DNA of 37,134 nucleotides from a virus, in the IMG/VR virus record IMGVR_UViG_3300047510_001046, positions 1-37,134 of that record; one strand, written 5' to 3'. The notes below the pieces were generated by a model. It had not been told where the DNA came from and did no database searches. It was given only the letters and a program-made list of their open reading frames with translations. Position numbers and translations under genes: made by a program. The first letter of the stretch is position 1. Every line of letters begins with the position of its first letter. Shown in pieces: positions 5,357-21,193 of the stretch.

Positions 5357-5579
5357 TATGGAAGACAAAAAGAGTGCGCTGTACAACTGGTTGTTTCATT
5401 ACAACCCTTATGATGAATGCTGGCATGCCTTTGTAAGAGAAGATTACATTGGATACTTCGGTTCTATCAAAGCATTAAACCCTGATTTTAAATCACCTAA
5501 GATTTCTGTACTAACAGAGATTATTGTAAAATGTGAAGGTGATCCCAAACGTGTAGCTGAGTATATTCAAGAGCTGTGA
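5343..5579 (+). CDS. Small aromatic-rich protein before TerL
   Basis: The clearly coding part begins MEDKKSALYNWLFHYNPYDE, continues with REDYIGYFG and ends with a helical segment (SVLTEIIVKCEGDPKRVAEY). The pattern 'NWLFHYNPY...W.AF.RED...YF' looks like a conserved small phage family, function unknown. Three starts are possible: ATG 5298 (long overlap with the previous gene), ATG 5343 (14-base overlap, used here) and ATG 5358 (one base after the previous stop). I favour the two later ones. The stop overlaps the GTG start of TerL (GTGA), so translation is probably coupled. Confidence 0.75.
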   Translation: MTKSNMEDKKSALYNWLFHYNPYDECWHAFVREDYIGYFGSIKALNPDFKSPKISVLTEIIVKCEGDPKRVAEYIQEL

Positions 5580-7768
5580 GTTTTATAGACGTACCTACCT
5601 GGAAAGATGGTGTTTGGCAAAGCACTGAATTTCAAACTCGACAAGAGTTTGCAGATTTTGTTTTATCTGTATTTGACATTCCTGGTAAGTATCAGTTTGA
5701 TGAAACATCATTGATCTTTAATGAGCAGTCTAGAATCTTTAATAAGGAGGGTGTCTATTGTACGGCACCCTTTAAATCTAAAGATTTTGTAGAATATTGG
5801 GAAGATCAGAAGAAAAAATGCAGAAATGGGGTAATCATACACGGTAAAAACAGAAAAATTTTCTATATAACCCGTGATTACTACATGTGGTTAAACTTCC
5901 TTCCAATCTTTGATAAGGAAGAAAAGAAGTATGGTTTTGCAAAAGTCAGAGATGCCCAGTATCACATGGCTTTGTATGAAGCTCTGGCTGAACTAAACTA
6001 TAAGCACACCGCAATTCTAAAGAAACGTCAGATTGCATCGTCTTACTTTCACATGGGCAAGCTTATTAACCAGTTCTGGTTTGAAGAAGGTGCTATTTTA
6101 AAAATTGGTGCTGCCCTAAAAGACTACATTAACGATAAAGGTTCTTGGAAATTTCTTGACGAGTATCGAAACTTTCTAAATGAGCACACTGCTTGGTATA
6201 GACCGTGTTCTCCTGATAAGGTTCTTATCTGGGAACAGAAGATTCAAGTAAGAATAAACAACAGAATAACTACTAGAGGTCTTAATTCTAAGATTCAGGG
6301 CATGTCATTTGAGAAAGATCCTACTACTGGTGTAGGTGGACCTGTGACATACTTCTTTCATGAAGAAGCTGGTATTGCTTCTAAGATGGATAAAACATAT
6401 GAGTACATACGCCCTGCAATGCAGTCTGGTATGATAACTACTGGTATGTTTATAGCAGCCGGATCTGTGGGTGACTTGGATCAGTGTGAACCTCTTAAGC
6501 AGATGATTATTAATCCAGACATTAATGACATCTATGTTGTTGAAACAGACCTTATTGACTCTGACAGAACTTGGGGTAAGTCTGGTCTTTTTATTCCTGA
6601 GCAGTGGTCAATGCCTCCATTTATTGATGAGTGGGGTAATTCTTTAGTAGAAGAAGCTTTAGAAGCGATTGTAGAGGAAAGAATTAAGTGGAAAAGAGAG
6701 CTTCCACCTGAACAGTATCAGCTTCGTATTTCTCAGAAACCTACAAATATTCAAGAAGCTTTTGCATATCGTAAAGAGTCAATATTTCCTATTGGTCTTG
6801 TAGCTTCACAAGCTAAACGAATTGAGGACAAAGAGTATTCCGTAGAATATTTGCAACTTGATAGAAATGACCAGGGTAAAGTTTTTCCAGAACGTAGTAG
6901 AAAGATACCTATCAGTGAGTTTCCAATATCTAAACGTACTGAAGATAAGACCGGAGTTCTTTGTGTTTGGGAAAGACCTGATGAAAATCCCGGCTTTGGT
7001 ACTTACTATGCATCTATTGACCCTGTATCAGAAGGTAAAACAACTACCTCAGACTCTCTCTGTAGCATCTTTGTATACAAGAACCCAGTGGAGGTTACCA
7101 GAACTACAGAAAATGGCGTAGAGAGCTTTATTGAAAGAGATAAGATTGTAGCTAGCTGGTGTGGTCGTTATGATGACATTAATAAAACACACGAGATGTT
7201 GGAAAACATTATCGAGTGGTACAATGCATGGACTATTGTAGAAAACAACGTGTCTCTTTTTATTCAGCATATGATTGCAAAAAAGAAACAGAGATACTTG
7301 GTACCAAAACAACAGATTCTATTCCTTAAAGATCTTGGCTCAAACAACAATGTGTTTCAGGAATATGGTTGGAAGAACACAGGAACCCTGTTTAAGAGTC
7401 ACTTGATATCCTACGCAATAGAGTTTTTGAGAGAAGAACTAGATGTAAAGACTAAATCTGATGGTAGTATTGTAAAAACTACTTATGGAGTTGAGAGAAT
7501 TCCTGATCCAATGCTTCTTAAAGAAATGCTTTCTTATCATCCTGGTCTTAACGTTGACCGTCTTGTTTCTTTTTCAGCTTTAGTAGCCTTTGCTAGAGTG
7601 CAACAATCCAATAGAGGATACTCAAAACGTACAGAGAATACCACCAAGTCCTTGGATAAATCAGATAATTTGTATAAATTAAAAATGAGCCCGTTTAGAC
7701 ATATGGGTGGACGCTCTATTGGTACAACAGACAAATTCAGAAAAGGCGCTTTTAAAAATTTTAAATAA
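5576..7768 (+). CDS. terL: Terminase large subunit (TerL)
   Basis: This is the packaging motor, with an N-terminal ATPase and a C-terminal RNase H-like nuclease that pump DNA into the prohead and cut it. Visible motifs are a Walker-A-equivalent KKRQIASSY (about 149-157), Walker B TYFFHEEAG with E263/E264, and a coupling motif GMFIAAGSVGD (about 290-300). The nuclease shows D482 in YYASIDPVSEGKTT, E556 in IVENN, and a third acid near D661 in NVDRLVSFSALVAFA. The length of 730 aa exceeds many TerL proteins because of an extra N-terminal region (about 1-130). The P-loop is atypical, lacking G-K-T/S. The start is GTG 5576, overlapping the previous stop by 4 bases. The stop overlaps the ATG of the next small gene (taATG). 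Confidence 0.9.
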   Translation: MSFIDVPTWKDGVWQSTEFQTRQEFADFVLSVFDIPGKYQFDETSLIFNEQSRIFNKEGVYCTAPFKSKDFVEYWEDQKKKCRNGVIIHGKNRKIFYITRDYYMWLNFLPIFDKEEKKYGFAKVRDAQYHMALYEALAELNYKHTAILKKRQIASSYFHMGKLINQFWFEEGAILKIGAALKDYINDKGSWKFLDEYRNFLNEHTAWYRPCSPDKVLIWEQKIQVRINNRITTRGLNSKIQGMSFEKDPTTGVGGPVTYFFHEEAGIASKMDKTYEYIRPAMQSGMITTGMFIAAGSVGDLDQCEPLKQMIINPDINDIYVVETDLIDSDRTWGKSGLFIPEQWSMPPFIDEWGNSLVEEALEAIVEERIKWKRELPPEQYQLRISQKPTNIQEAFAYRKESIFPIGLVASQAKRIEDKEYSVEYLQLDRNDQGKVFPERSRKIPISEFPISKRTEDKTGVLCVWERPDENPGFGTYYASIDPVSEGKTTTSDSLCSIFVYKNPVEVTRTTENGVESFIERDKIVASWCGRYDDINKTHEMLENIIEWYNAWTIVENNVSLFIQHMIAKKKQRYLVPKQQILFLKDLGSNNNVFQEYGWKNTGTLFKSHLISYAIEFLREELDVKTKSDGSIVKTTYGVERIPDPMLLKEMLSYHPGLNVDRLVSFSALVAFARVQQSNRGYSKRTENTTKSLDKSDNLYKLKMSPFRHMGGRSIGTTDKFRKGAFKNFK

Positions 7769-7894: not shown

Positions 7895-10642
7895 ATGCAA
7901 GTATTTAACGCAATGCAGCTTAAGGCTGGGGCCAAAGCAGAGTACAATAAAATGGGTACTCTTACCCAGCCCGTACAGTTTATTAGCAAAGCTGACAAAG
8001 ATGATGAATGGGCAGCATGGAACATTGACTGGATTGAAACTCAGGGTGTTAAGCAGCTCAGAAGAAACTCAAGACGTCTTCTCAAGAACTATAAACTTGC
8101 AAAAGGCATCATTGATAAGACTGATTACATCATTGAAGAAGATAACGAGTACGTAGATCTTGTAGATATTCTGACTAAAGAAGATGAGTCAGCTCTTGAG
8201 ATCAAGTTCTACCCTATTGTACCTAATGTTATTAACCTGCTTGTAGCCGAATTTGCTAAAAGATCTAGCAAGATCCAATTTAGAGCAGTTGACGACACCT
8301 CATATCTTGAAATGATTGAGGAAAAAAGAACAATGCTTGAAAGAACTATTCTTCAACAGGCAGAACAGAAGATGGCTCAGAGACTTATGGCAATGGGCGC
8401 TGATCCTGAGAGTGAAGAATTTCAGCAAGCAATGGCTCCAGAGCAGTTAAAGACGCTTCCTGAAATTGAAGGATTCTTTAGAAAAGACTATAGATCACTT
8501 ATTGAAGAGTGGGCGGAGCATCAGATGCGTGTAGATGAGGAGCGTTTTAAGTTACAAGAACTTGAAGAGAGGGCATTCCGCGACATGCTTATTACAGATC
8601 GTGAGTTCTGGCATTTTAAGCTCAATGAAGATGATTATGAGTTAGAACTCTGGAATCCTATTCTTACTTTCTACCACAAGTCTCCGGATATTCGTTATAT
8701 ATCTGATAGTAACTGGGTAGGTAAAGTAGATATGATGACCGTTGCTGACGTAATAGACAAGTACGGTTATTTAATGGATGAAGAGCAGCACAAAGCTCTT
8801 GAAGCTATTTACCCTATTCGTTCAGCAGGTTATGCTGTAGGAGGATATCAAAACGATGGTTCATATTATGATGCAACTAGATCACATGAATGGAATACAC
8901 AAATGCCTTCATTGGGCTTCCGTCAATTCACTGCTACTAGAGATGCTTACAATGGCTTTAATGGTGACATTGTAAACTGGTTGCTAGGTGAGTCTGAAGA
9001 CTTTTTTGACTTTGGAACGACTCTTATGTTGCGTGTTGCAACTGTTTACTGGAAGTCTCAAAGAAGAGTGGGGCACCTCTATAGAATTGACGAAAACGGA
9101 AACGTTACTCAAGATATAGTTGACGAAACGTACAAGGTTATGAACAAACCTATGTACAATAACACTCTTATTAAGCAGAAGACCAAAGAGACCTTAGTTT
9201 TTGGTGATCATATTGACTGGATCTGGATTAATGAGACTTGGGGCGGTGTAAAGATTGGACCTAACTATCCTTCACACTGGGGTCTAACAGATCCTGATGG
9301 ATTCAATCCTATCTATCTTGGTGTAAATAAAGCAAAACCAGGAAGACTTCAGTTCCAATTTAAAGGAACAGATTCTCTATATGGTTGTAAACTTCCTGTA
9401 GAAGGTGCTGTATTCTCTGATCGTAACACAAGATCGGTATCTCTTGTAGATCTGATGAAGCCTTTTCAGATTGGATATAACATTGTAAACAACCAAATTG
9501 CAGATATTCTTGTAGATGAGCTTGGTACAGTTATTATGCTCGATCAGAATGCTTTACCGCGTCACTCTCTGGGAGAAGATTGGGGTAAAAACAATCTAGC
9601 AAAAGCATATGTGGCTATGAAGAACTTCCAGATGTTACCTCTGGATACTTCTATCACTAACACAGAAAATGCTCTGAACTTCCAACACTATCAAGTTCTT
9701 AGTCTTGAGCAGACTAATCGTTTGATGTCTCGTATTCAACTTGCCAACTACTTTAAAGGGCAAGCGTTTGAAGCTATTGGTATTACTCCACAAAGACTTG
9801 GAGAAGCTGTTGAACAGCCTACAGCTACAGGATTGCGTATGGCCATGACAAACTCATATGCACAGACAGAGATGTACTTTGTACAGCACTCTGATCACCT
9901 GATGCCTAGAGTACACCAGATGCGTACAGATCTTGCTCAGTACTATCACAGTACCAAGCCATCTATTCGCTTACAGTACATGACTACTGTTGATGAGAAG
10001 GTAAACTTTGAGATGAATGGTGTAGATCTTTTGATGCGCGACATCAATATTTTTGCTACAACCAAGACAAATCATAGACAAGTTTTAGAGCAGCTAAAGC
10101 AGCTTGCTATGACAAATAATACTGCTGGTGCAAGTATTTATGATTTAGGCAATATCATCAAAGCTGATAGCATTGCTGAAGTAACCGGTGTTCTTAAAGA
10201 TGCTGAAGCTAAACAACAGCAGATGAAAGAATCTGAAATGCAGCAGATGCAGCAGATGAAAGAGCAAGAGATTCAAGCTCGTCAGCAAGAGGCTATGATG
10301 AAGATGCAGTTTGAGCAGGAAGAAGCAGAAAAAGATCGTCAGAAAGATATTACTGTTGCTGAGATCAGATCTGCTGGATACGGAGCTATGCAAGACATCA
10401 ATAAAAATGAGGTATCTGACTATCAAGATTTCATGAAAAACATGCGTCAAGAAGATAGATATCAAGAACAGATGAATATGCGTAGAGAAGAAAACGTAAA
10501 TAAGCGTGCTTCAGATACTGCAAAACTTGATATAGAAAGAGAGCGTCTGTCTACTCAAAGAGAGATAGCAGATAAGCAACTACAAGTGGCTAGAGAGAAT
10601 AAGAATAGATTTGATGTGCAATCTAAGAAAGATTCTAAATAG
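7895..10642 (+). CDS. Portal protein, long form with C-terminal coiled coil
   Basis: The portal forms the dodecameric ring at the capsid vertex through which DNA enters. Support comes from its position directly after TerL, its 915-aa length and its portal-like start (LRRNSRRLLKNYKLAKGIID, then PIVPNVINLLVAEFAKRSSK). Helical clip and stem regions lie between about 120 and 700. A recognisable helix (GQAFEAIGITPQRLGEA, about 625-645) is of the type seen in P22-like and crAss-like portals. From about residue 765 to 905 the protein is a Gln/Glu/Lys-rich coiled coil, comparable to a barrel extension into the capsid. It is followed by a 129-base gap before the scaffold-like gene. Confidence 0.85.
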   Translation: MQVFNAMQLKAGAKAEYNKMGTLTQPVQFISKADKDDEWAAWNIDWIETQGVKQLRRNSRRLLKNYKLAKGIIDKTDYIIEEDNEYVDLVDILTKEDESALEIKFYPIVPNVINLLVAEFAKRSSKIQFRAVDDTSYLEMIEEKRTMLERTILQQAEQKMAQRLMAMGADPESEEFQQAMAPEQLKTLPEIEGFFRKDYRSLIEEWAEHQMRVDEERFKLQELEERAFRDMLITDREFWHFKLNEDDYELELWNPILTFYHKSPDIRYISDSNWVGKVDMMTVADVIDKYGYLMDEEQHKALEAIYPIRSAGYAVGGYQNDGSYYDATRSHEWNTQMPSLGFRQFTATRDAYNGFNGDIVNWLLGESEDFFDFGTTLMLRVATVYWKSQRRVGHLYRIDENGNVTQDIVDETYKVMNKPMYNNTLIKQKTKETLVFGDHIDWIWINETWGGVKIGPNYPSHWGLTDPDGFNPIYLGVNKAKPGRLQFQFKGTDSLYGCKLPVEGAVFSDRNTRSVSLVDLMKPFQIGYNIVNNQIADILVDELGTVIMLDQNALPRHSLGEDWGKNNLAKAYVAMKNFQMLPLDTSITNTENALNFQHYQVLSLEQTNRLMSRIQLANYFKGQAFEAIGITPQRLGEAVEQPTATGLRMAMTNSYAQTEMYFVQHSDHLMPRVHQMRTDLAQYYHSTKPSIRLQYMTTVDEKVNFEMNGVDLLMRDINIFATTKTNHRQVLEQLKQLAMTNNTAGASIYDLGNIIKADSIAEVTGVLKDAEAKQQQMKESEMQQMQQMKEQEIQARQQEAMMKMQFEQEEAEKDRQKDITVAEIRSAGYGAMQDINKNEVSDYQDFMKNMRQEDRYQEQMNMRREENVNKRASDTAKLDIERERLSTQREIADKQLQVARENKNRFDVQSKKDSK

Positions 10643-12021: not shown

Positions 12022-13635
12022 ATGGCAACACCTGTTTTAAACAATGGTATCTTCCTGAGAGACACTGCTTACAAAGCATCCTCTCACGTTGATTCTTATC
12101 ACTTGGCAAACATGCTGGGTGGTTCTGAACCTACAGACCTTGGTCCTGTAGATCTTTGGGCTATGGCCCAGAAAGTAGAGATGCCTCTCTACCAGATGGC
12201 ATCTTTTGGTGGTAAAAACACCATCTCTGTTGATAATGCTCGTGGAGAGTACAAGTGGCAGGTTCCTGTTACTCAAGATCTTCCCTACATTGTAGAGAGC
12301 TTGAGCGGTAACTTGGGCGCTGATGGCGTACCTTTTACCATTAAGCTGAACAAGCGTGCATTTGGTCACGGTGACATCATCACTTACGACAAGTACAACG
12401 GTATGGAAATGTACATCACTGCAGAAGACATTCTTCCTGCTAATGATGGTTTCGTTTACACTGTTCGTCTTGTAAACAACAACAACAGCGCTTCTCTTGA
12501 CGCTGCTTTGTATCTGAAAGCTGGTACTAAGTTGTTCCGTAAAGGTTCTGCACGTGGTGAGTACGGTGAGCGTTTCTCTGACATCGGAGAATTCGGAACT
12601 GGATTCCGTGAGTTCTACAACTTCGTAGGAGGTGCTGAAGCTCACGTACACTACAGTGTATCTAGCCGTGCTGACTTGATGCTGAAAGGCGGAATGAGAG
12701 CTGATGGTACTGTACCTGTAGTAGAGATCTGGAGAAACTTCGACAAGAACATGGATCCTTCTATCACCAACTTGGAAACAATGGTGCAGAAGATGGGCAA
12801 AGACTCTGTAAAGCGTGCTTTTGAGTCTGGTTCTTTGTCTCGTACTTTCTTGACTTCTATGGAAGCAGCTCACTTGACCAAAATTGCTAACGACATTGAA
12901 ACTTACCTCATGTGGGGTCAGGGTGGTCGCATCAAGCAAGACGGTCCAGATGATCTTCGTCTGTCTGTAGGTTTGTGGAAGCAGCTTGACAACTCATTCA
13001 AGCGTATCTACAACAAGTCTGGTTTCTCTCTTGACATGTTCAAGGCTGAATTGTACAACTTCTACCAAGGTCGTGTTGAACTGCAAGGTCCAGACCCCAA
13101 GCGTCAGATCATTGTACAGACTGGTCTGGGTGGTATGAAGCTTGTTAACGAAGCTATCAAGAAGGAAGCTAATGCTTCTGGTCTGTTGATCCGTGCTACT
13201 GATATCGGTGCAGTTAACGGTCAAGCTATGGATCTTAACTTCGGTTTTGCTTACACTAGCTACGTTATTCCTTTCTTGGCAAACGTTAAGTTTGTTTTGA
13301 ATCCTGCATTCGACAACCTGCACACCAACGACATTGAGAATCCTTTGATCGACGGTCATCCTTTGAGCTCTTACAGCTTTGTAGTATTTGATGTTACTGA
13401 AAACGGTAACGACAACATCTACTTGTTGAAGCTTAACTGGGACAATCAGTTGAAGTGGTTCTACCAAAATGGTACTATGGACTACATGGGACGTACTCAA
13501 GGTTTCCAGTCTTCTGGTAACTTTAACGGATACCGTGTATTCATGACTCAAACGATGCCAGCTATCTGGGTTAAAGACGCTACTAAAGTGTTGAAGATCG
13601 TTATGAGAAACCCAATCACTGGTGGATCATTCTAA
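12022..13635 (+). CDS. Major capsid protein
   Basis: This is the building block of the icosahedral shell, expected to have the HK97 fold. The 537-aa protein follows the scaffold-like gene. Its codon use differs clearly from its neighbours, with preference for CGT over AGA and many C-ending codons such as AAC, TAC and GAC, as expected for the most highly expressed gene. The sequence is Gly-, Asn- and aromatic-rich with a long mixed alpha/beta pattern and no coiled coil. The leader is AAAAACA directly before the ATG. A long hairpin follows the stop (13644-13683). The call rests on gene order, length and expression signature rather than on a specific motif. Confidence 0.85.
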   Translation: MATPVLNNGIFLRDTAYKASSHVDSYHLANMLGGSEPTDLGPVDLWAMAQKVEMPLYQMASFGGKNTISVDNARGEYKWQVPVTQDLPYIVESLSGNLGADGVPFTIKLNKRAFGHGDIITYDKYNGMEMYITAEDILPANDGFVYTVRLVNNNNSASLDAALYLKAGTKLFRKGSARGEYGERFSDIGEFGTGFREFYNFVGGAEAHVHYSVSSRADLMLKGGMRADGTVPVVEIWRNFDKNMDPSITNLETMVQKMGKDSVKRAFESGSLSRTFLTSMEAAHLTKIANDIETYLMWGQGGRIKQDGPDDLRLSVGLWKQLDNSFKRIYNKSGFSLDMFKAELYNFYQGRVELQGPDPKRQIIVQTGLGGMKLVNEAIKKEANASGLLIRATDIGAVNGQAMDLNFGFAYTSYVIPFLANVKFVLNPAFDNLHTNDIENPLIDGHPLSSYSFVVFDVTENGNDNIYLLKLNWDNQLKWFYQNGTMDYMGRTQGFQSSGNFNGYRVFMTQTMPAIWVKDATKVLKIVMRNPITGGSF

Positions 13636-13780: not shown

Positions 13781-14791
13781 ATGACAACAATTATTGAAAA
13801 GTATCAAGAAAACAAGAGCAAGCAAATTGCGATTCGTCCTTTCTTTGATGCAAGAAACGAGAACATGGGTCTCGAAAAGTACAGTTTGACACTGTACGAC
13901 AATGTTTATCACGAAGAGCAGCTTGCTTGCTTAGAGTATAACGGTATCAAAAGGTATCTTACAGGATTAAACGAGTTTGCTCCTGATGTGAAAGCTCTTG
14001 ATCCAGATGCTCAAAAAGCTAAATCTCAGCATATTAGAGAAGTTGTTTCTCAGCTTGAGAAAGAACTGGCTGCAAATATTATAGATCCTAAGGATCCTGA
14101 GTTCTGGAACAAAGTAAAACTACTTCGTCCTGATAACGACGATTTTTGGGGTAGAATTACTCTTCGTTGTGGTAATGAACCTTTGTATTTAGATCCTAAG
14201 AGAGATCCTTACGATCTTATTAAGCTTTATGCTATTGAAGCCGGTGGTTTTTCAATTGTTGCAAAAAGTCTTGAGGCTGCTAACAAAGCTCCTAAAGCTC
14301 CTAAATTTTATCTTGACAAAGTTGAATCTACAGTATCTCACAGAACTGAAATTAGTAAGGTTCGTAACAAAGCGCTTGCAGAGCTTCAAAAGCTTTACGA
14401 TAAGCATGTATCTAAACTATTCTTGGTTGCTAAAGTTCTAGATGTAGATAGCACGCAGTACGTAAAGAGCACTCCTACTGATATTCTTTACGAAAACATG
14501 GATGCTTTTATCAATGGTCTTTCTGTAGAGAAAGATAAAAAGCGTACTGCACAAATGTTTATTGATGCTGCTGGAGATAGCATGGAGAACCTAAAATTGA
14601 GAGCAATTGTTAAAGATGCTACTAGATACAAGGTAATTGCTGCTAAATCTGACGGATTTATCTATCACATGGAGACTGCTGCTAACATGGGTAGAACTCC
14701 TGCAGACGTTGTAGAGTACCTAAAGAATCCTTTGAATGAAGAAATTCTTATGAAGATGCTCTCAACAGTTGAAAGTTACTGGAATAATTAA
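13781..14791 (+). CDS. Hypothetical 336-aa virion-operon protein
   Basis: No family is recognised. The protein is charged and mostly helical after about residue 65. It has an N-terminal region with mixed strands (IAIRPFFDARNENMGLEKYS) and a Lys-rich central helix (about 180-215). It sits between the major capsid and the neck/adaptor genes, the usual place for head completion, decoration or minor capsid proteins. Codon use (many AGA, GAT, AAA) is unlike the capsid gene, so it is probably not made in very large amounts. The start is supported by the AAACCAACT leader shared with genes at 10772 and 17944. Confidence 0.75.
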   Translation: MTTIIEKYQENKSKQIAIRPFFDARNENMGLEKYSLTLYDNVYHEEQLACLEYNGIKRYLTGLNEFAPDVKALDPDAQKAKSQHIREVVSQLEKELAANIIDPKDPEFWNKVKLLRPDNDDFWGRITLRCGNEPLYLDPKRDPYDLIKLYAIEAGGFSIVAKSLEAANKAPKAPKFYLDKVESTVSHRTEISKVRNKALAELQKLYDKHVSKLFLVAKVLDVDSTQYVKSTPTDILYENMDAFINGLSVEKDKKRTAQMFIDAAGDSMENLKLRAIVKDATRYKVIAAKSDGFIYHMETAANMGRTPADVVEYLKNPLNEEILMKMLSTVESYWNN

Positions 14792-14928: not shown

Positions 14929-15630
14929 ATGAATAACGCTACCCTCCAACTAAAAATTAAACAGCGGCTCAACAAGCTTGCCAGTAACGACTATGATAAT
15001 ATAGAGTGCTGGCAGATTGTTGAAGCTTTTAATAAAGCTCAGATTGAATGGGTCCGTCGTCAGCTGCATGGTAATAACATGAGTAAAGAAGGTGACGAAG
15101 AATCTAAAAGACGTGTTGATGATCTTCAACAGCTTCTTGTAGATAGCGTTATGACTGGTAATGATAGAGTTACGTTTTTTGAATCAGATGCTCTTCCTGC
15201 CAACTATATGGAATTTAAGAGAGTATCTGCTTTTGCTAAAGACGAATGCTGCCCTGAAAGAGTTCTTGCAATATATCAAACTGAAGAAGCTGATGTTGAT
15301 TTGCTTCTTAGAGATAGATATAAATCGCCAAACTTTGAATGGGCGGAAACATATTGCACTCTTTTAAGTGATCGTATAAGAATCTACACAAATAATAAAT
15401 TTGAGATTGTTAGACCTAGACTATACTACTATAGAAAGCCTATCAATATACAGATTTTAAACTGTGTAGACCCGTATACACAAGTTGCTTCTACGTCAGA
15501 TATAGCTTGTGAATTTAGAGATGATATAGTTGAACTTTTGATTGATGAAGCTGCCGCTATTCTTGCAGGCGATATCGAGTCAATGATTCAATATCAACGT
15601 GGTACAACCTCAGCAGAAAGAAGTAACTAA
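14929..15630 (+). CDS. Neck / head-to-tail adaptor protein
   Basis: The 233-aa protein follows the capsid genes where head completion proteins lie. It starts with a helical segment (LQLKIKQRLNKLASNDYDNI) typical of adaptor proteins that sit under the portal. It contains mixed strands in the middle (about 85-185). It ends with the helix FRDDIVELLIDEAAAILAGD followed by MIQYQRG, a pattern I associate with adaptor or connector proteins of Bacteroidota phages. Tail tubular protein A-type rings of podoviruses are the alternative. The stop codon overlaps the ATG of the next gene (taATG), so the two are probably translationally coupled. Confidence 0.6.
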   Translation: MNNATLQLKIKQRLNKLASNDYDNIECWQIVEAFNKAQIEWVRRQLHGNNMSKEGDEESKRRVDDLQQLLVDSVMTGNDRVTFFESDALPANYMEFKRVSAFAKDECCPERVLAIYQTEEADVDLLLRDRYKSPNFEWAETYCTLLSDRIRIYTNNKFEIVRPRLYYYRKPINIQILNCVDPYTQVASTSDIACEFRDDIVELLIDEAAAILAGDIESMIQYQRGTTSAERSN

Positions 15631-16058
15631 TGGAAGCTCCTAAAAAATTAAGTCGCCCAGTCTCATCAGACAAAGCAACACAGGCTATGGGATCTCTGAT
15701 TTCAGAGATGCTAATGGCATCAATGCATACACATAAACTTCATCTTAAAGTAAGAAGCACTGGTTCTTATGCCCAGCATAAAGCGCTTCAGGAATTTTAT
15801 GAAGGAATCCAAGATCAACTTGACACTCTTGCAGAGCAATATCAAGGTCATAAAATGTTACTTCTTAATATAGGAGAACCAGTTATGAAAAATATTTCTT
15901 TGCAGTCGGTGGAAAATTGTTTGGATTATTTAGATAAATTGTATACATTAATTAGTGAGACACAGTCAATGATGACATGTAGTTCTATCATTAATGAGAT
16001 GGACAACACGAAAGGATTGATTAACTCAACCAAGTACAAACTTAAATTTTTGTCTTAA
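15630..16058 (+). CDS. Dps/ferritin-like protein (miniferritin candidate)
   Basis: Dps proteins form 12-subunit cages that oxidise and store iron and can protect DNA. The 142-aa protein is all-helical. Around SYAQHKALQEFYEGIQDQLD it has His38, His50, Asp65 and Glu69, i.e. H-x11-H-x14-D-x3-E, exactly the spacing of the Dps ferroxidase residues (His31, His43, Asp58, Glu62 in the Listeria protein; 51, 63, 78, 82 in E. coli). The auxiliary Asp four residues after the second His is Gln54 here. The length is slightly short for Dps. Ferritin-like phage proteins of this appearance exist with unknown function. Its place between the neck and probable tail-tube genes, coupled by taATG, suggests production late with the virion. 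A helical chaperone or assembly factor is the alternative. Confidence 0.6.
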   Translation: MEAPKKLSRPVSSDKATQAMGSLISEMLMASMHTHKLHLKVRSTGSYAQHKALQEFYEGIQDQLDTLAEQYQGHKMLLLNIGEPVMKNISLQSVENCLDYLDKLYTLISETQSMMTCSSIINEMDNTKGLINSTKYKLKFLS

Positions 16059-16090: not shown

Positions 16091-17254
16091 ATGGCTTATT
16101 TTCCCCATGCCTATCAAAAGCTGCTCTTGGCAAAGAGTGCTGAAGCAGCTTCTGGCGTAGCATCTAGTGCTCTGTCAGCCGGTGAAGTTGGTTTGCTCGA
16201 TGCTACCACTTACCAATCTATTGCAATTGCTACTGCTGCTAACGCTGCTAGTACGCTAACTGCTCCAATGTATGTTCTTGCTCAAGGTAGCTTGCATACA
16301 ACTGACAAACTTGGTCCTTTTCACGGAGGTTACAAGGAGTCTGTAAAATCTAAGGGTATTAATCCTAAGTACGTAAGTGCTATTTGGAAATCAGATGCTG
16401 CTGCCGAAGTTGCTGCTACATTGACTGTAGAAGCTGAAGGTGACTGCTTCAAGTGCGGTGTTGAGCGCTATTTGCGTTTGGACATCAAAGGTTCTCCTGC
16501 TCTGCGTTTCTTGGGTCGTAATGCTTACTTTGTAGCTGACTGGACTAACTACTGCTGCGCTACTGGCCAAACTACTGTAGATCCTTACACTGTATTGTCT
16601 ACTTGGGCTGAGCAAATTGCTGGTGATCCTTTGGTATCTCCTTTTGTTTCTGCTGTAGTACAAAAGTGGGATACCGTAAATGAGGAGTGGATTTCTTCTG
16701 CTGGTCACACAGTAACTACTTCTAGCCACGGTAAGTTCCGTATCGTTCTTACTGCTAAGACTACTGCTCAAATCTCTACTCACTTTGGTGATGCTGGATT
16801 CCGTCCTACGGATCACTTTGAGTTGGAGCCCTTGCAGCTTTTTGCATCTGAGCTTGATGAGACCGGAAATCAGTGTAATGTAGCTTGTACTACTATCGCT
16901 GCTACTGTAGGTACTCAGAAAAAAGGTTCTGGTGAGTCTGTTGTTCGTCAGTTGATTTTGAGCAACCGTTACGAGCAAGACCCTTTCCAACAGGATTCAA
17001 GAATGCGTGAAATTTTGGATGAAGTAGCTTTCAATGTTGATCGCACTGCTTCTTACAACTTGTATCACTTGCTTCACAGCGTACCTCGCAAGAGCAATCC
17101 TAGCGGTACTATGGATAACGATCAATACTTGATCACAATTGCTGTTCTTTCTACTGACACAACCACTAATACTCGTGTTGACGATATGTTGGTTGATCTT
17201 GGTAAAGCTGCTGGTTTGTTTGCAAATGCGGTACTTAATGTACCTGTAAAGTAA
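16091..17254 (+). CDS. Abundant virion protein, probably major tail protein
   Basis: The 387-aa protein is beta-rich with Ala/Thr/Val-rich segments and several Cys (CFKC near 118, CC near 155, QCNVAC near 265). Its codon use matches the major capsid gene: CGT, GGT, GCT and TTG/CTG preferred and AGA nearly absent. It has the same AAAAACA leader and is followed by the strongest terminator in the window. Together with its position after the neck protein this points to a high-copy virion protein, most simply the major tail (tube) protein; a capsid decoration or podoviral ring protein is the alternative. If it is a tail tube protein, the phage has a long tail. Confidence 0.65.
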   Translation: MAYFPHAYQKLLLAKSAEAASGVASSALSAGEVGLLDATTYQSIAIATAANAASTLTAPMYVLAQGSLHTTDKLGPFHGGYKESVKSKGINPKYVSAIWKSDAAAEVAATLTVEAEGDCFKCGVERYLRLDIKGSPALRFLGRNAYFVADWTNYCCATGQTTVDPYTVLSTWAEQIAGDPLVSPFVSAVVQKWDTVNEEWISSAGHTVTTSSHGKFRIVLTAKTTAQISTHFGDAGFRPTDHFELEPLQLFASELDETGNQCNVACTTIAATVGTQKKGSGESVVRQLILSNRYEQDPFQQDSRMREILDEVAFNVDRTASYNLYHLLHSVPRKSNPSGTMDNDQYLITIAVLSTDTTTNTRVDDMLVDLGKAAGLFANAVLNVPVK

Positions 17255-18077: not shown

Positions 18078-18665
18078 ATGTCAAACTACGCAGATAAAGA
18101 AATCAAAATAAACGGCAGCTTTGCTGAGGCTGTGTACAAACAGTTTGTGCAAGATAGATTTGGTATTACCATGTGTGGTGATACCGACTATGAAAAGCAC
18201 GGTACACAACTTGAACTTTGTAACTGGGATAAGTTAGCTCTTGCTAATGGTCTTGATAGAGTTACAGTTCGCAAGTTTGACTTTGAGCCAATCTATTACA
18301 ACTCTGCGCTTATCATATCTGATTTTACTACTGGATCTGCTGTAAATGCTCCTATTACTACAACTGTAGATTATCAATACGGAACAAACGGCATACAGAG
18401 CCTTATTACTGTTAACTCTGGAGGTAACATTACAAACATTACTGTTAATCCTGAGATTAATATTAACAGAAACAACGAGTTTACGTTTGAGCAACTTACT
18501 GCATCTTGCAGCTGGCTCATTACTCACAACTTTGGATTTGTACCTAACGTTTATACAACAAATCTGCAAGGTCAGGAAATTGAAGGTGTAGTAGTACCTA
18601 TTGATACTAATACTATCCAAGTAAACTTCTCTGAAGACGTTGCAGGCTACGCATACCTAAGCTAA
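18078..18665 (+). CDS. Tail fibre-associated protein with shared C-terminal module
   Basis: The 195-aa protein has an N-terminal part of unknown type (about 1-75, with CGDTDYEKHGTQLELCNWDK) and a beta-rich middle with a repetitive Asn/Thr/Ile segment (GGNITNITVNPEININ) like a thin fibre shaft. The C-terminal module at about 145-195 (WLITHNFGFVPNVY... then VNFSEDVAGYAYLS) reappears in the next gene and, diverged, in the 658-aa fibre. That suggests a small fibre or fibre connector whose tip module is shared. It starts 2 bases after the stop of the 43-aa gene. Confidence 0.7.
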   Translation: MSNYADKEIKINGSFAEAVYKQFVQDRFGITMCGDTDYEKHGTQLELCNWDKLALANGLDRVTVRKFDFEPIYYNSALIISDFTTGSAVNAPITTTVDYQYGTNGIQSLITVNSGGNITNITVNPEININRNNEFTFEQLTASCSWLITHNFGFVPNVYTTNLQGQEIEGVVVPIDTNTIQVNFSEDVAGYAYLS

Positions 18666-18666
18666 G

Positions 18667-19197
18667 ATGTCATCCTGCCCAGCAAAAAAGATATTCTACA
18701 GTGACTTAAGCATTGCTTATAATGAACTGTTAGATGCACGGATAGAAAATAAAACTACCGTGGACAGACTTGCTATGTCTTTGGGTGCACCCCACACAGG
18801 TCTTGCTATTTGGGATATTGATCTAGAAGGATTGTTTGTGTGGCAGTATGATCATTGGGTAAGAGTAGGTGCAAGCCAACAGGAAATTAACAACTGGAAT
18901 GAAGCATATGATGACTCAGTTGTAGATTTTACTTTAAACCAAGGAACAGATAGTGTCTTTACTATTCACAGACGCAATAGCTCTAACTTGTCAGTAACTT
19001 ATCACAGCGGTTATATACATAATCAGACTGTACCAAGTGATACTTGGATTATTACTCACAATCTTAATAAAAATCCTTCTATAACAGTTACTAACTCAGC
19101 TGGTGATGAGGTAGAAGGAGCAGTTACCATTAACTCTCTTAATCAAGTAACAATAACTTTTTGTGGTGCGTTTTCCGGAAATGCGTATCTCAATTAA
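18667..19197 (+). CDS. Short tail fibre protein, paralogue of the 658-aa fibre termini
   Basis: The 176-aa protein has an N-terminal module NELLDARIENKTT followed by GAPHTGLAIWDIDLEGLFVW. It matches the start of the next gene (CELLNARVHNL, then GTPVSGQIYYNT and a W-containing turn). Its C-terminal module WIITHNLNKNPSITVTNSAG ending GNAYLN matches the previous gene. It thus looks like a minimal fibre with an anchor and a tip but almost no shaft. It begins 1 base after the previous stop (taagATG). The role in adsorption is inferred from these modules and from the neighbours. Confidence 0.7.
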   Translation: MSSCPAKKIFYSDLSIAYNELLDARIENKTTVDRLAMSLGAPHTGLAIWDIDLEGLFVWQYDHWVRVGASQQEINNWNEAYDDSVVDFTLNQGTDSVFTIHRRNSSNLSVTYHSGYIHNQTVPSDTWIITHNLNKNPSITVTNSAGDEVEGAVTINSLNQVTITFCGAFSGNAYLN

Positions 19198-19216: not shown

Positions 19217-21193
19217 ATGGCAAAAAAATTCTTAACCTCAATCGACCTTAGCAAGTGTGAACTGCTTAATGCTAGGGTTCACAACCTCGCTGCGGCTCCA
19301 GGGACGCCAGTGTCAGGTCAAATCTACTACAACACTGTTGATGGACAGATGTACTATTACGATGGTGCAATCTGGCAATCAATGCGTGGTGACATTACCA
19401 GCGTATCTATTACTGCAGGTAATGGTCTTAGTGGAACTTCTTCAACTCTTAATGGAGCTTTTTCAGCTACGTTAGATGTAAACGTTGATACCACTACAGT
19501 TGGTATTAATGGTTCTGATGAACTATATGTAATAAAAGATGCAGCATATCTTGCTAATCTTTATACTGCAGATGGAACACTTACTGGTGCCCGTGTTGCT
19601 ACTCTTGGTGCAAATAACTTAACCTTTAATGCTACTAGCACCGGTAAGTTTACTATCCAAAATAGCCTTTACATTGGTCAAGTTGCTACTGGTGGTACTG
19701 GTCAAATTTATATCTATGCTCCTGATGCTGGTCTTGGTAGCGGTATTACTTGGGATGATGGTACAGCCCCTACAGCAAAGATTAAATTCCAGCATAACGT
19801 AGGTGACTTTGTATTTGAGATTGGTGGTACAGAACTTCTTCAATTAGATGGTACTGCTGGTAATACAGGTCTTAAAATCAATAAAGGTGTAGTATCCTCT
19901 GTATACGCTCTTGACGTGACTGCAAACTCAGGTTCTGATGTTGCTCGTCTTGAGGGAATGATTGAGTCTACCACAGAGTCACGTTTTGTAACTATTTCTA
20001 CTGGTGGTGTCCTTAAGTACCGTACAGTAACTGGTATTAGTTCTACTGGTGCAGTACAAAACCTTGGTAATACTAACCTTTCAGTAACTGCTGGAGAGTC
20101 TAGAACTTTTACAATTAATGATGCAAGAGCTGACGCATTTAAAATTGCTGATGTTGATGGCACGCTTCTTAACTTTAATACTACTGGTGCTTCTGTTACC
20201 GCCAAAGTTGCAACTTTTGGTACTTCAGTTGTAATTGATGGTAACCTTACTGTATCTGGTACTACTACAACTATCTCTACTGAGACTGTAACAATTGCAG
20301 ATAACATTATTGTACTTAACTCTAATGCTGCTGGAGCTGCTACAGAATCTGCTGGTTTTGAAATTGAGCGTGGTACAGATACAAACGTACAGTTCCTTTG
20401 GAATGAAACTAATGACTATTGGTCTGCTGTAAATACAAAGCTTCATGTAGGTACGATTGCTACGGGTACTTCAACTAGCATTCTTATTGAGAACTCAGGA
20501 GTTATTGAGAAGAGAACTCTTAGCGGAATGCTGGATACTCTTACCTTTGCTGGTAACTCTGGTACAGCTGTTCCTACAGGTGGTACAATTACTTTTTCTG
20601 GATCTAACGGTGTAAACATTGTAGCTGCTGGTAACATAGTTGCTGTAGCTGGTGTAGATGCAACTACAACTACTAAGGGTGTTGCTAGTTTTGCTGCTGC
20701 TGACTTTGATGTAACTTCTGGTGCAGTAAGTCTTGAAGATACTGTTGTTAAGACAGTAACTACTGACTCAGGTGCACTTACTCCTTCTTCTCATGGATTC
20801 TCAATTCTTGGTGGAGAAGGTATGGATGTTACTCACACGGGTACAACCATTACAGTTGCAGGAGAAGATGCTACAACCACTAATAAAGGTATTGTAGAGC
20901 TTGCTACAGCAGCTGAGACAAACGCTCTTACAGACACTGCAAGAGCAGTAACTCCAGCAAGTCTTGCAGGTCTGCGCTACGCTGCCCCAACTCCTCCTAT
21001 TACTGCTGGTACAACGGGACCTATTCCACATAATCTTAACGGTACACATATACTTTTCCAAGTATTTGAAACAGCTACTGGAGAAAATGTGGAAATGGAT
21101 GTAATTAGAATTGATAATAATACTGTAGAGCTTAGAACATGCAATGATCATGCTGCTGGAGCGTTCCAATTGATGGCAATAAAGATTGCATAA
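19217..21193 (+). CDS. Tail fibre protein, 658 aa
   Basis: The N-terminal anchor module (about 10-60: CELLNARVHNL, GTPVSGQIYYNTVDGQMYYY) is followed by a long beta-rich shaft of Thr/Ser/Gly/Val-rich repeats, including the segment SGTTTTISTETVTIADNIIV common in phage fibres. The C-terminal domain (about 600-658) has HNLNGTHILFQVFE, related to the tip module of the two previous genes. There is no S74 chaperone. The protein is expected to be a trimeric fibre or a fibre-base segment that carries the larger fibres encoded downstream. No signal peptide or coiled coil is present. Confidence 0.8.
   Translation: MAKKFLTSIDLSKCELLNARVHNLAAAPGTPVSGQIYYNTVDGQMYYYDGAIWQSMRGDITSVSITAGNGLSGTSSTLNGAFSATLDVNVDTTTVGINGSDELYVIKDAAYLANLYTADGTLTGARVATLGANNLTFNATSTGKFTIQNSLYIGQVATGGTGQIYIYAPDAGLGSGITWDDGTAPTAKIKFQHNVGDFVFEIGGTELLQLDGTAGNTGLKINKGVVSSVYALDVTANSGSDVARLEGMIESTTESRFVTISTGGVLKYRTVTGISSTGAVQNLGNTNLSVTAGESRTFTINDARADAFKIADVDGTLLNFNTTGASVTAKVATFGTSVVIDGNLTVSGTTTTISTETVTIADNIIVLNSNAAGAATESAGFEIERGTDTNVQFLWNETNDYWSAVNTKLHVGTIATGTSTSILIENSGVIEKRTLSGMLDTLTFAGNSGTAVPTGGTITFSGSNGVNIVAAGNIVAVAGVDATTTTKGVASFAAADFDVTSGAVSLEDTVVKTVTTDSGALTPSSHGFSILGGEGMDVTHTGTTITVAGEDATTTNKGIVELATAAETNALTDTARAVTPASLAGLRYAAPTPPITAGTTGPIPHNLNGTHILFQVFETATGENVEMDVIRIDNNTVELRTCNDHAAGAFQLMAIKIA

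Follow-up and report, generated by a model that had tools for sequence, protein, structure and literature searches.

Phage-encoded Dps-like proteins have been reported before (PMC8008677; PMC6669764). Such enzymes include the DPS of Gratiaviridae and of a Lactobacillus phage and the DpsA of a gut crassvirus; the Lactobacillus phage gene lies near replication genes and that of crassvirus cr106_1 (MT774378.1; locus L312, positions 5701-6144) among tRNA genes, neither of them in a virion operon. In E. coli Dps, a basic N-terminal tail binds DNA. The cargo ferritins of encapsulins (EncFtn and ferritin-like cargo) are ferroxidases that a short terminal peptide sends into an HK97-fold shell. Bacterial non-heme ferritins (FtnA) constitute a different branch of the ferritin superfamily, with ~200 residues and an intrasubunit diiron site. 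A further phage family, DUF5856 (PF19174; PHROG 858), is that of T4 rI.-1 and of Vi01-type proteins, whose genes reside in the rI lysis cluster of T4-like phages and, in Vi01-like phages, near the gp61 primase gene, downstream of a 'tail completion' operon. The DUF5856 family is already known, though misnamed, and no paper dealing with it by name was found in the open-licence literature.

Here, a DUF5856 gene was analysed in a stretch of viral DNA of 37,134 nucleotides (IMG/VR record IMGVR_UViG_3300047510_001046, positions 1 to 37,134), termed the window, which derives from a freshwater-type crAss-like phage. By the curated cut-off, its product belongs to the same family as the T4-like and Vi01-like proteins, and it displays the same H-H / H / D / E pattern. 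The locus differs, since the window gene occupies a slot of the virion operon between the neck and auxiliary capsid genes, and since in this lineage the Dps-like gene is replaceable by a ferritin gene, which sets it apart from the T4-like and Vi01-like DUF5856 loci.

A DUF5856 gene in the virion operon

The features of the locus are presented in Table 1. The Dps-like reading frame sits among particle-building genes and starts at the sequence taATG, in which the final A of the upstream gene's TAA also serves as the A of the ATG; this one-base overlap at 15630 agrees with the translational coupling to the neck gene proposed in the initial annotation. The protein matched Pfam DUF5856 with an E-value of 4.9e-16 and 60 bits, above the gathering cut-off of 34.6, and phrog_858, a family named 'starvation-inducible transcriptional regulator', with an E-value of 5e-24. 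A search of the PDB with the single sequence retrieved Dps/NapA chains (E 9.4e-6), and the E-value fell to 4e-8 when a profile of 30 homologues was used. These family and PDB matches indicate that the reading frame is not a chance reading, and the invariance of the ligands described below, together with a median dN/dS of 0.12 between close homologues, rules out both a chance ORF and a dead active site. The curated models for the classical families were not reached, as PF00210 (Ferritin) was unlisted at E-values up to 1 and the NCBIfam Dps equivalog NF006975 gave 14.3 bits where 114 are needed. A scan of viral contigs with the single Dps-like sequence returned no matches, whereas the profile scan did find loci; the window lineage is crAss-like (major capsid protein PF23898), and no fewer than 599 relatives were found among viral contigs.

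Table 1. Coordinates of the Dps-like gene, its putative functional elements and the surrounding virion genes in the window.
Feature	Position	Strand	Basis and remarks
Terminase large subunit	5576..7768	+	PHROG 6681, 4.3e-67
Portal protein	7895..10642	+	PHROG 6547, 3.8e-89
Major capsid protein	12022..13635	+	Crass_capsid PF23898, 2.2e-27
Conserved virion-operon gene between major capsid protein and neck genes	13781..14791	+	Order kept in relatives
Upstream 'neck' gene, virion structural protein	14929..15630	+	233 aa; PHROG 29507
Dps-like (DUF5856) gene, predicted ferroxidase	15630..16058	+	142 aa; PF19174, PHROG 858, AF2 fold
N-terminal extension, residues 1-14, MEAPKKLSRPVSSD, K-x-L-x-R-P motif	15630..15671	+	Motif scan, composition; precedes helix 1
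H35 and H38 codons (helix 1); H38, first putative ferroxidase ligand	15732..15743	+	H38 aligns with NapA ferroxidase His
H50 codon, second putative His ligand	15777..15779	+	Invariant, 115/115
D65 and E69 codons, putative carboxylate ligands (D-x3-E)	15822..15836	+	Invariant, 115/115
Downstream gene, auxiliary capsid protein of gp36 type by predicted fold	16091..17254	+	387 aa; AF2 model fold

Crassvirus virion genes flank the Dps-like gene, with the Crass_capsid major capsid protein on one side and a gp36-type auxiliary capsid protein on the other. Judged by gene order, the neck gene product is probably a tail-barrel ring protein like gp34/gp35 of phicrAss001; hhalign of the neck protein profile against gp34 gave an E-value of 0.0089 but a probability of 4.5, and a PDB profile search with the neck gene found nothing relevant. 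The gene downstream had been annotated as a probable major tail gene, a reading that its predicted fold rules out, as the model matched chain 7qof_a, named 'Auxiliary capsid protein gp36' (phicrAss001), with a Foldseek E-value of 5.5e-11 and, in VIA-align, a Z of 16.5 and an rmsd of 4.4 over 302 residues. Direct hhalign comparison with gp36 detected no sequence similarity, so that the gp36-type assignment is one of predicted fold. The nearest named relative by major capsid protein, Leptolyngbya phage Lbo-JY46 (28% identity full-length), has its genes in the same order but nothing in the slot.

Further features were observed elsewhere in the window. The adjoining ORFs at 18078-18665 and 18667-19197 have a C-terminal domain of ~60 residues in common (PHROG 30556), which the C-terminal end of 19217-21193 resembles by eye; it is perhaps a fibre attachment domain. 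The strand opposite the virion operon carries a 4HBT hotdog thioesterase (1637-2083; PF03061, 5.6e-17), which is unusual in a phage.

Ferroxidase ligands and predicted fold

Read directly from the sequence, and as claimed in the initial annotation, the protein displays the spacing H38-x11-H50-x14-D65-x3-E69, which is identical to that of NapA H25/H37/D52/E56 in a phmmer alignment (NapA numbering assigned in this analysis); the Trp that follows the first ligand in NapA corresponds to Leu39. Residues H35, H38, H50, D65 and E69 are invariant in 39 syntenic proteins, most of which share 29-52% identity with the window protein, and in all 115 distinct homologues when every collected sequence is considered, a set that includes the T4-type rI.-1 of phage AR1 and proteins from a Vi01-like phage, Xanthomonas phage XaC1 and Chryseobacterium phage MA9V-2. 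Conservation of the four ligand residues, whose absence had been named as a result that would count against the miniferritin reading, is thus complete in this set. The gut crassvirus DpsA of cr106_1, which scores just under the DUF5856 cut-off, retains the four ligands but not H35.

The AlphaFold2 model, calculated from 30 window-lineage sequences, is a four-helix bundle (pLDDT 91.3, pTM 0.84) with helices predicted at residues 15-44, 47-75, 94-112 and 118-140, so that the other result named as counting against the miniferritin reading, a model lacking such a bundle, did not arise either. Foldseek comparison with the PDB, the check suggested in the initial annotation, returned mostly Dps among the top matches, and VIA-align superposed the model on MsDps2 with a Z of 16.4 and an rmsd of 2.3 over 128 residues; the YciF and bacterioferritin families scored within 1-2 Z of this value. 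The predicted loop between helices B and C has no helix of four or more residues between positions 76 and 93. Dps and NapA are therefore the best PDB matches by both sequence and fold and have an identical ferroxidase spacing, while the window protein differs from them in its own kind of N-terminal extension, in a B-C loop for which no helix is predicted and in remaining under the curated thresholds. Family, fold, ligands and gene position uphold a Dps-like miniferritin in the virion operon, but 'Dps' in the strict sense lacks support, and, because no B-C loop helix is predicted and the curated models were not reached, the protein is named here a Dps-like miniferritin of DUF5856.

Recurrent exchange with ferritin behind the neck gene

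Where the neck gene was in view in the Dps-like profile scan, the Dps-like gene followed it directly in 75 of 76 loci, one gene intervening in the remaining locus. An extra ORF of ~318 residues was observed between the neck and Dps-like genes in L107 (4033-4989; the same phage is present in L238). In L037, L050 and L051 a true ferritin is encoded in the slot (PF00210, 71-78 bits; cut-off 24.5), and a scan with these three proteins revealed 48 loci with a ferritin gene behind the neck gene, five of which then carry a Dps-like gene in tandem. The tandem order of neck gene, ferritin and Dps-like gene was observed in L202, L203, L205, L206 and L208. The slot ferritins are of the bacterial non-heme type (FtnA) and, with their six diiron ligands invariant in 35 of 35 distinct proteins, are distinct from the window protein. 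Exchange with ferritin is independent evidence that points to iron.

Loci from a scan with the neck gene, taken without selection on slot content, comprised 33 with a Dps-like gene, one with ferritin and 40 in which the capsid gene comes directly next; the Dps-like gene is dispensable, and about half of these loci have an empty slot. Genomes with an empty slot that keep a Dps-like gene elsewhere were looked for, and 15 records whose slot was empty or untypical, many of them maybe incomplete, contained neither a Dps-like nor a ferritin gene in the rest of the record. One further such record, that of L261, does carry a Dps-like gene; in this 136 kb record (G009), DUF5856 genes lie at 600-1046 and 123824-124270, reflecting either duplication or assembly overlap. 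In L247 (4199-4384) and L284 (4168-4383) the slot is occupied by a small holin of the Pam3 gp28 type (PF23987) rather than by an iron protein.

When ferritin presence is mapped onto a tree built from 173 neck proteins, 16 changes are required, at least nine of them forced by starred branches, although the tree was built by a quick method and recombination of the neck gene itself is possible. Start-stop overlaps are alike for Dps-like and ferritin genes. In the sister loci L075 (Dps-like) and L175 (ferritin), the DNA is almost the same up to and including the neck stop and for ~30 nt into the following ORF, after which the two sequences diverge; the pairs L036/L045 and L136/L246 differ by a clean presence or absence right behind the neck stop.

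The N-terminal extension

The K-x-L-x-R-P motif of the window protein is common to ferritins that occupy the same slot in relatives. Both kinds of enzyme have basic, P/S/T-rich N-terminal extensions, with a median length of 24 residues in Dps-like proteins and 39 in ferritins and a mean net charge of +2.4 and +3.1, respectively, that of the window protein being +1. A motif of the form LKR or K-x-[LI]-x-R-P/S/N, defined after inspection of the data and counted in sets whose near relatives are not independent, was identified at the N-terminus of 53% of Dps-like proteins and 46% of ferritins, compared with 0.9% of other plus-strand ORFs and a mean of less than one per set in shuffled sets. In the tandem of L206, a K-I-x-R-P N-terminus is present on both the ferritin and the Dps-like protein. 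The alignment of solved ferritins with the L037 ferritin begins only around residue 42 of the reading frame, which identifies the ferritin extension as an addition. The similarity between the extensions of ferritins and those of the Dps-like proteins with the nearest neck protein is only moderately above random, eight of 1000 random draws being as high. A recombination breakpoint just past the start can explain some of this sharing, and an origin of the common N-terminus by recombination alone is conceivable.

Homologues in purified virions and protease fusions

Proteins of the family have been detected in CsCl-purified particles of two unrelated phage families, both outside the window lineage, although spectra from purified virions can also represent contamination. 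In Vi01-like phage Sajous1, gp217, identified as 'ferritin' by Phyre2, yielded 10 spectra, and gp214-216 yielded 196, 32 and 20 (PMC10892097); gp217 was confirmed here as a DUF5856 homologue. In the T4-like Klebsiella phages ValerieMcCarty03 and ValerieMcCarty04, gp108 and gp100 yielded 26 and 27 spectra, respectively, exceeding the authors' virion cut-off of 15 (PMC13119998), and both were confirmed here as DUF5856 proteins encoded beside rI. In the text description of phicrAss001 virion mass spectrometry, no Dps is named.

In Chryseobacterium phage MA9V-2 (OR513085.1; L004, 2600-6223), a protein of 1207 residues combines a head maturation protease (residues 23-267) with a DUF5856 domain (464-576); all ferroxidase ligands are present, and the gene adjoins that of the major capsid protein. 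Relatives of this fusion were not found in viral contigs. The 'prohead protease' proteins A0A6J7XDU5, A0A6J7WIS1 and A0A6J7WPK9 of uncultured phages, observed in a viral fold library, contain a region of Dps-like fold, and going by these entries the fusion of protease and Dps-like domain may recur.

Proposed function and alternatives

We consider it somewhat probable that the protein is an active ferroxidase that is produced together with the proteins of the particle and travels in or on the virion. Ferroxidase function, taken separately, is highly probable; given that function, packaging is fairly likely. For the window lineage, several points are inferred rather than observed: that the enzyme oxidises iron, what oligomer it forms, that it is made late and packaged, what the extension does and what the phage gains. 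In the proposed mechanism, the miniferritin would be a late product, its translation coupled to that of the neck gene and its gene lying between the neck and auxiliary capsid genes, and would oxidise Fe(II) in a Dps-like manner at paired His/His and Asp/Glu sites. The metal sites would lie at the subunit interface if the assembly is Dps-like, and the oxidised iron would be kept in a small cage. The N-terminal extension, which is short, basic and disordered, probably directs the protein to the particle under assembly or to its DNA, and the enzyme, most likely in or on the virion, would remove Fe(II) and limit Fenton damage to DNA that is packaged or has just been delivered. The earlier reading of a Dps-like ferroxidase made with virion proteins is well supported, apart from the strict Dps label and the major tail neighbour. 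Going by sequence, the roles of DNA protection, iron supply for virions and DNA compaction are inseparable, although the ability of a ferritin to stand in for the Dps-like protein favours iron handling over compaction. More tentatively, the locus may constitute an iron-cargo system in which an N-terminal address peptide kept at the locus loads interchangeable Dps-like proteins or ferritins into or onto the particle, as in encapsulins. The likeness to encapsulin cargo ferritins is a possible analogy; the window protein carries its extension at the N-terminus, with no sequence relationship to theirs, and its packaging is here inferred.

In the main rival explanation, the ferroxidase is active but remains inside the infected cell, where it detoxifies iron and peroxide late in infection, shielding both the DNA under replication and the dying host; its place in the operon would reflect late timing only. 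We regard this as possible, if doubtful. Neither the invariant active site nor the exchange with ferritin requires packaging; moreover, protection of the host has been proposed for DPS and Mn-catalase encoded by phages (PMC8008677), ferritin has been put forward as one of the ROS defences of freshwater phages (PMC6802176), and the gut crassvirus DpsA is encoded outside the virion operon. A purely cellular enzyme leaves unexplained why the gene so strictly follows the neck gene, why two different enzymes carry the N-terminal motifs and why homologues are detected in the virions of two families. Packaging has difficulties of its own, since empty slots are common, cr106_1 DpsA lies outside the virion operon, the T4-type homologue belongs to the rI lysis-inhibition cluster and Dps goes unnamed in the text description of phicrAss001 virion mass spectrometry.

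A DNA-binding, DNA-compacting protein of Dps type, with its basic tail on the packaged DNA and iron chemistry secondary, would suit basic extensions comparable to the tail through which E. coli Dps binds DNA, but is unlikely, as the metal ligands are best conserved while the tail varies, the window protein's own tail carries a net charge of just +1, and ferritins, which do not usually compact DNA, occupy the slot. Particle iron might instead serve as bait for iron receptors or as a cofactor for tail proteins, the Ferrojan-horse proposal made for Sajous1 gp214-217 by its authors, who nevertheless saw no TonB or FeoB dependence (PMC10892097); with a capsid protein rather than a tail-tip protein as the window neighbour, we consider this quite improbable. 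Least credible, and very improbable, is a regulator of lysis inhibition or transcription, as implied by database names and by work on T4 rI.-1, over-expression of which slightly delays the collapse of lysis inhibition (Golec 2010, according to the review PMC6832632). The name of PHROG 858 speaks for such a role, but its 'starvation-inducible' part suits the relationship to Dps stress proteins; ligand conservation and ferritin exchange argue against it, and a homologue is present in RaK2 in the absence of rI, t or rIII (PMC3622015).

Significance

The virion-operon slot, the recurrent exchange with ferritin and the common N-terminus appear to be new, no description of them having been found in the open-licence literature. 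At one fixed place of a virion operon, two different iron-oxidising enzymes have been exchanged repeatedly in nature. DUF5856, which comprises T4 rI.-1 and relatives in more than 1000 phage records and is annotated as 'transcriptional regulator' or hypothetical, gains a testable biochemical function, and together with the published virion mass spectrometry, the question of whether and why phage particles carry ferroxidases becomes directly testable in T4-like laboratory phages. The iron-cargo system, if true, would make iron chemistry a virion function. These observations suggest that phages of this lineage handle iron during particle assembly, perhaps inside the particles.
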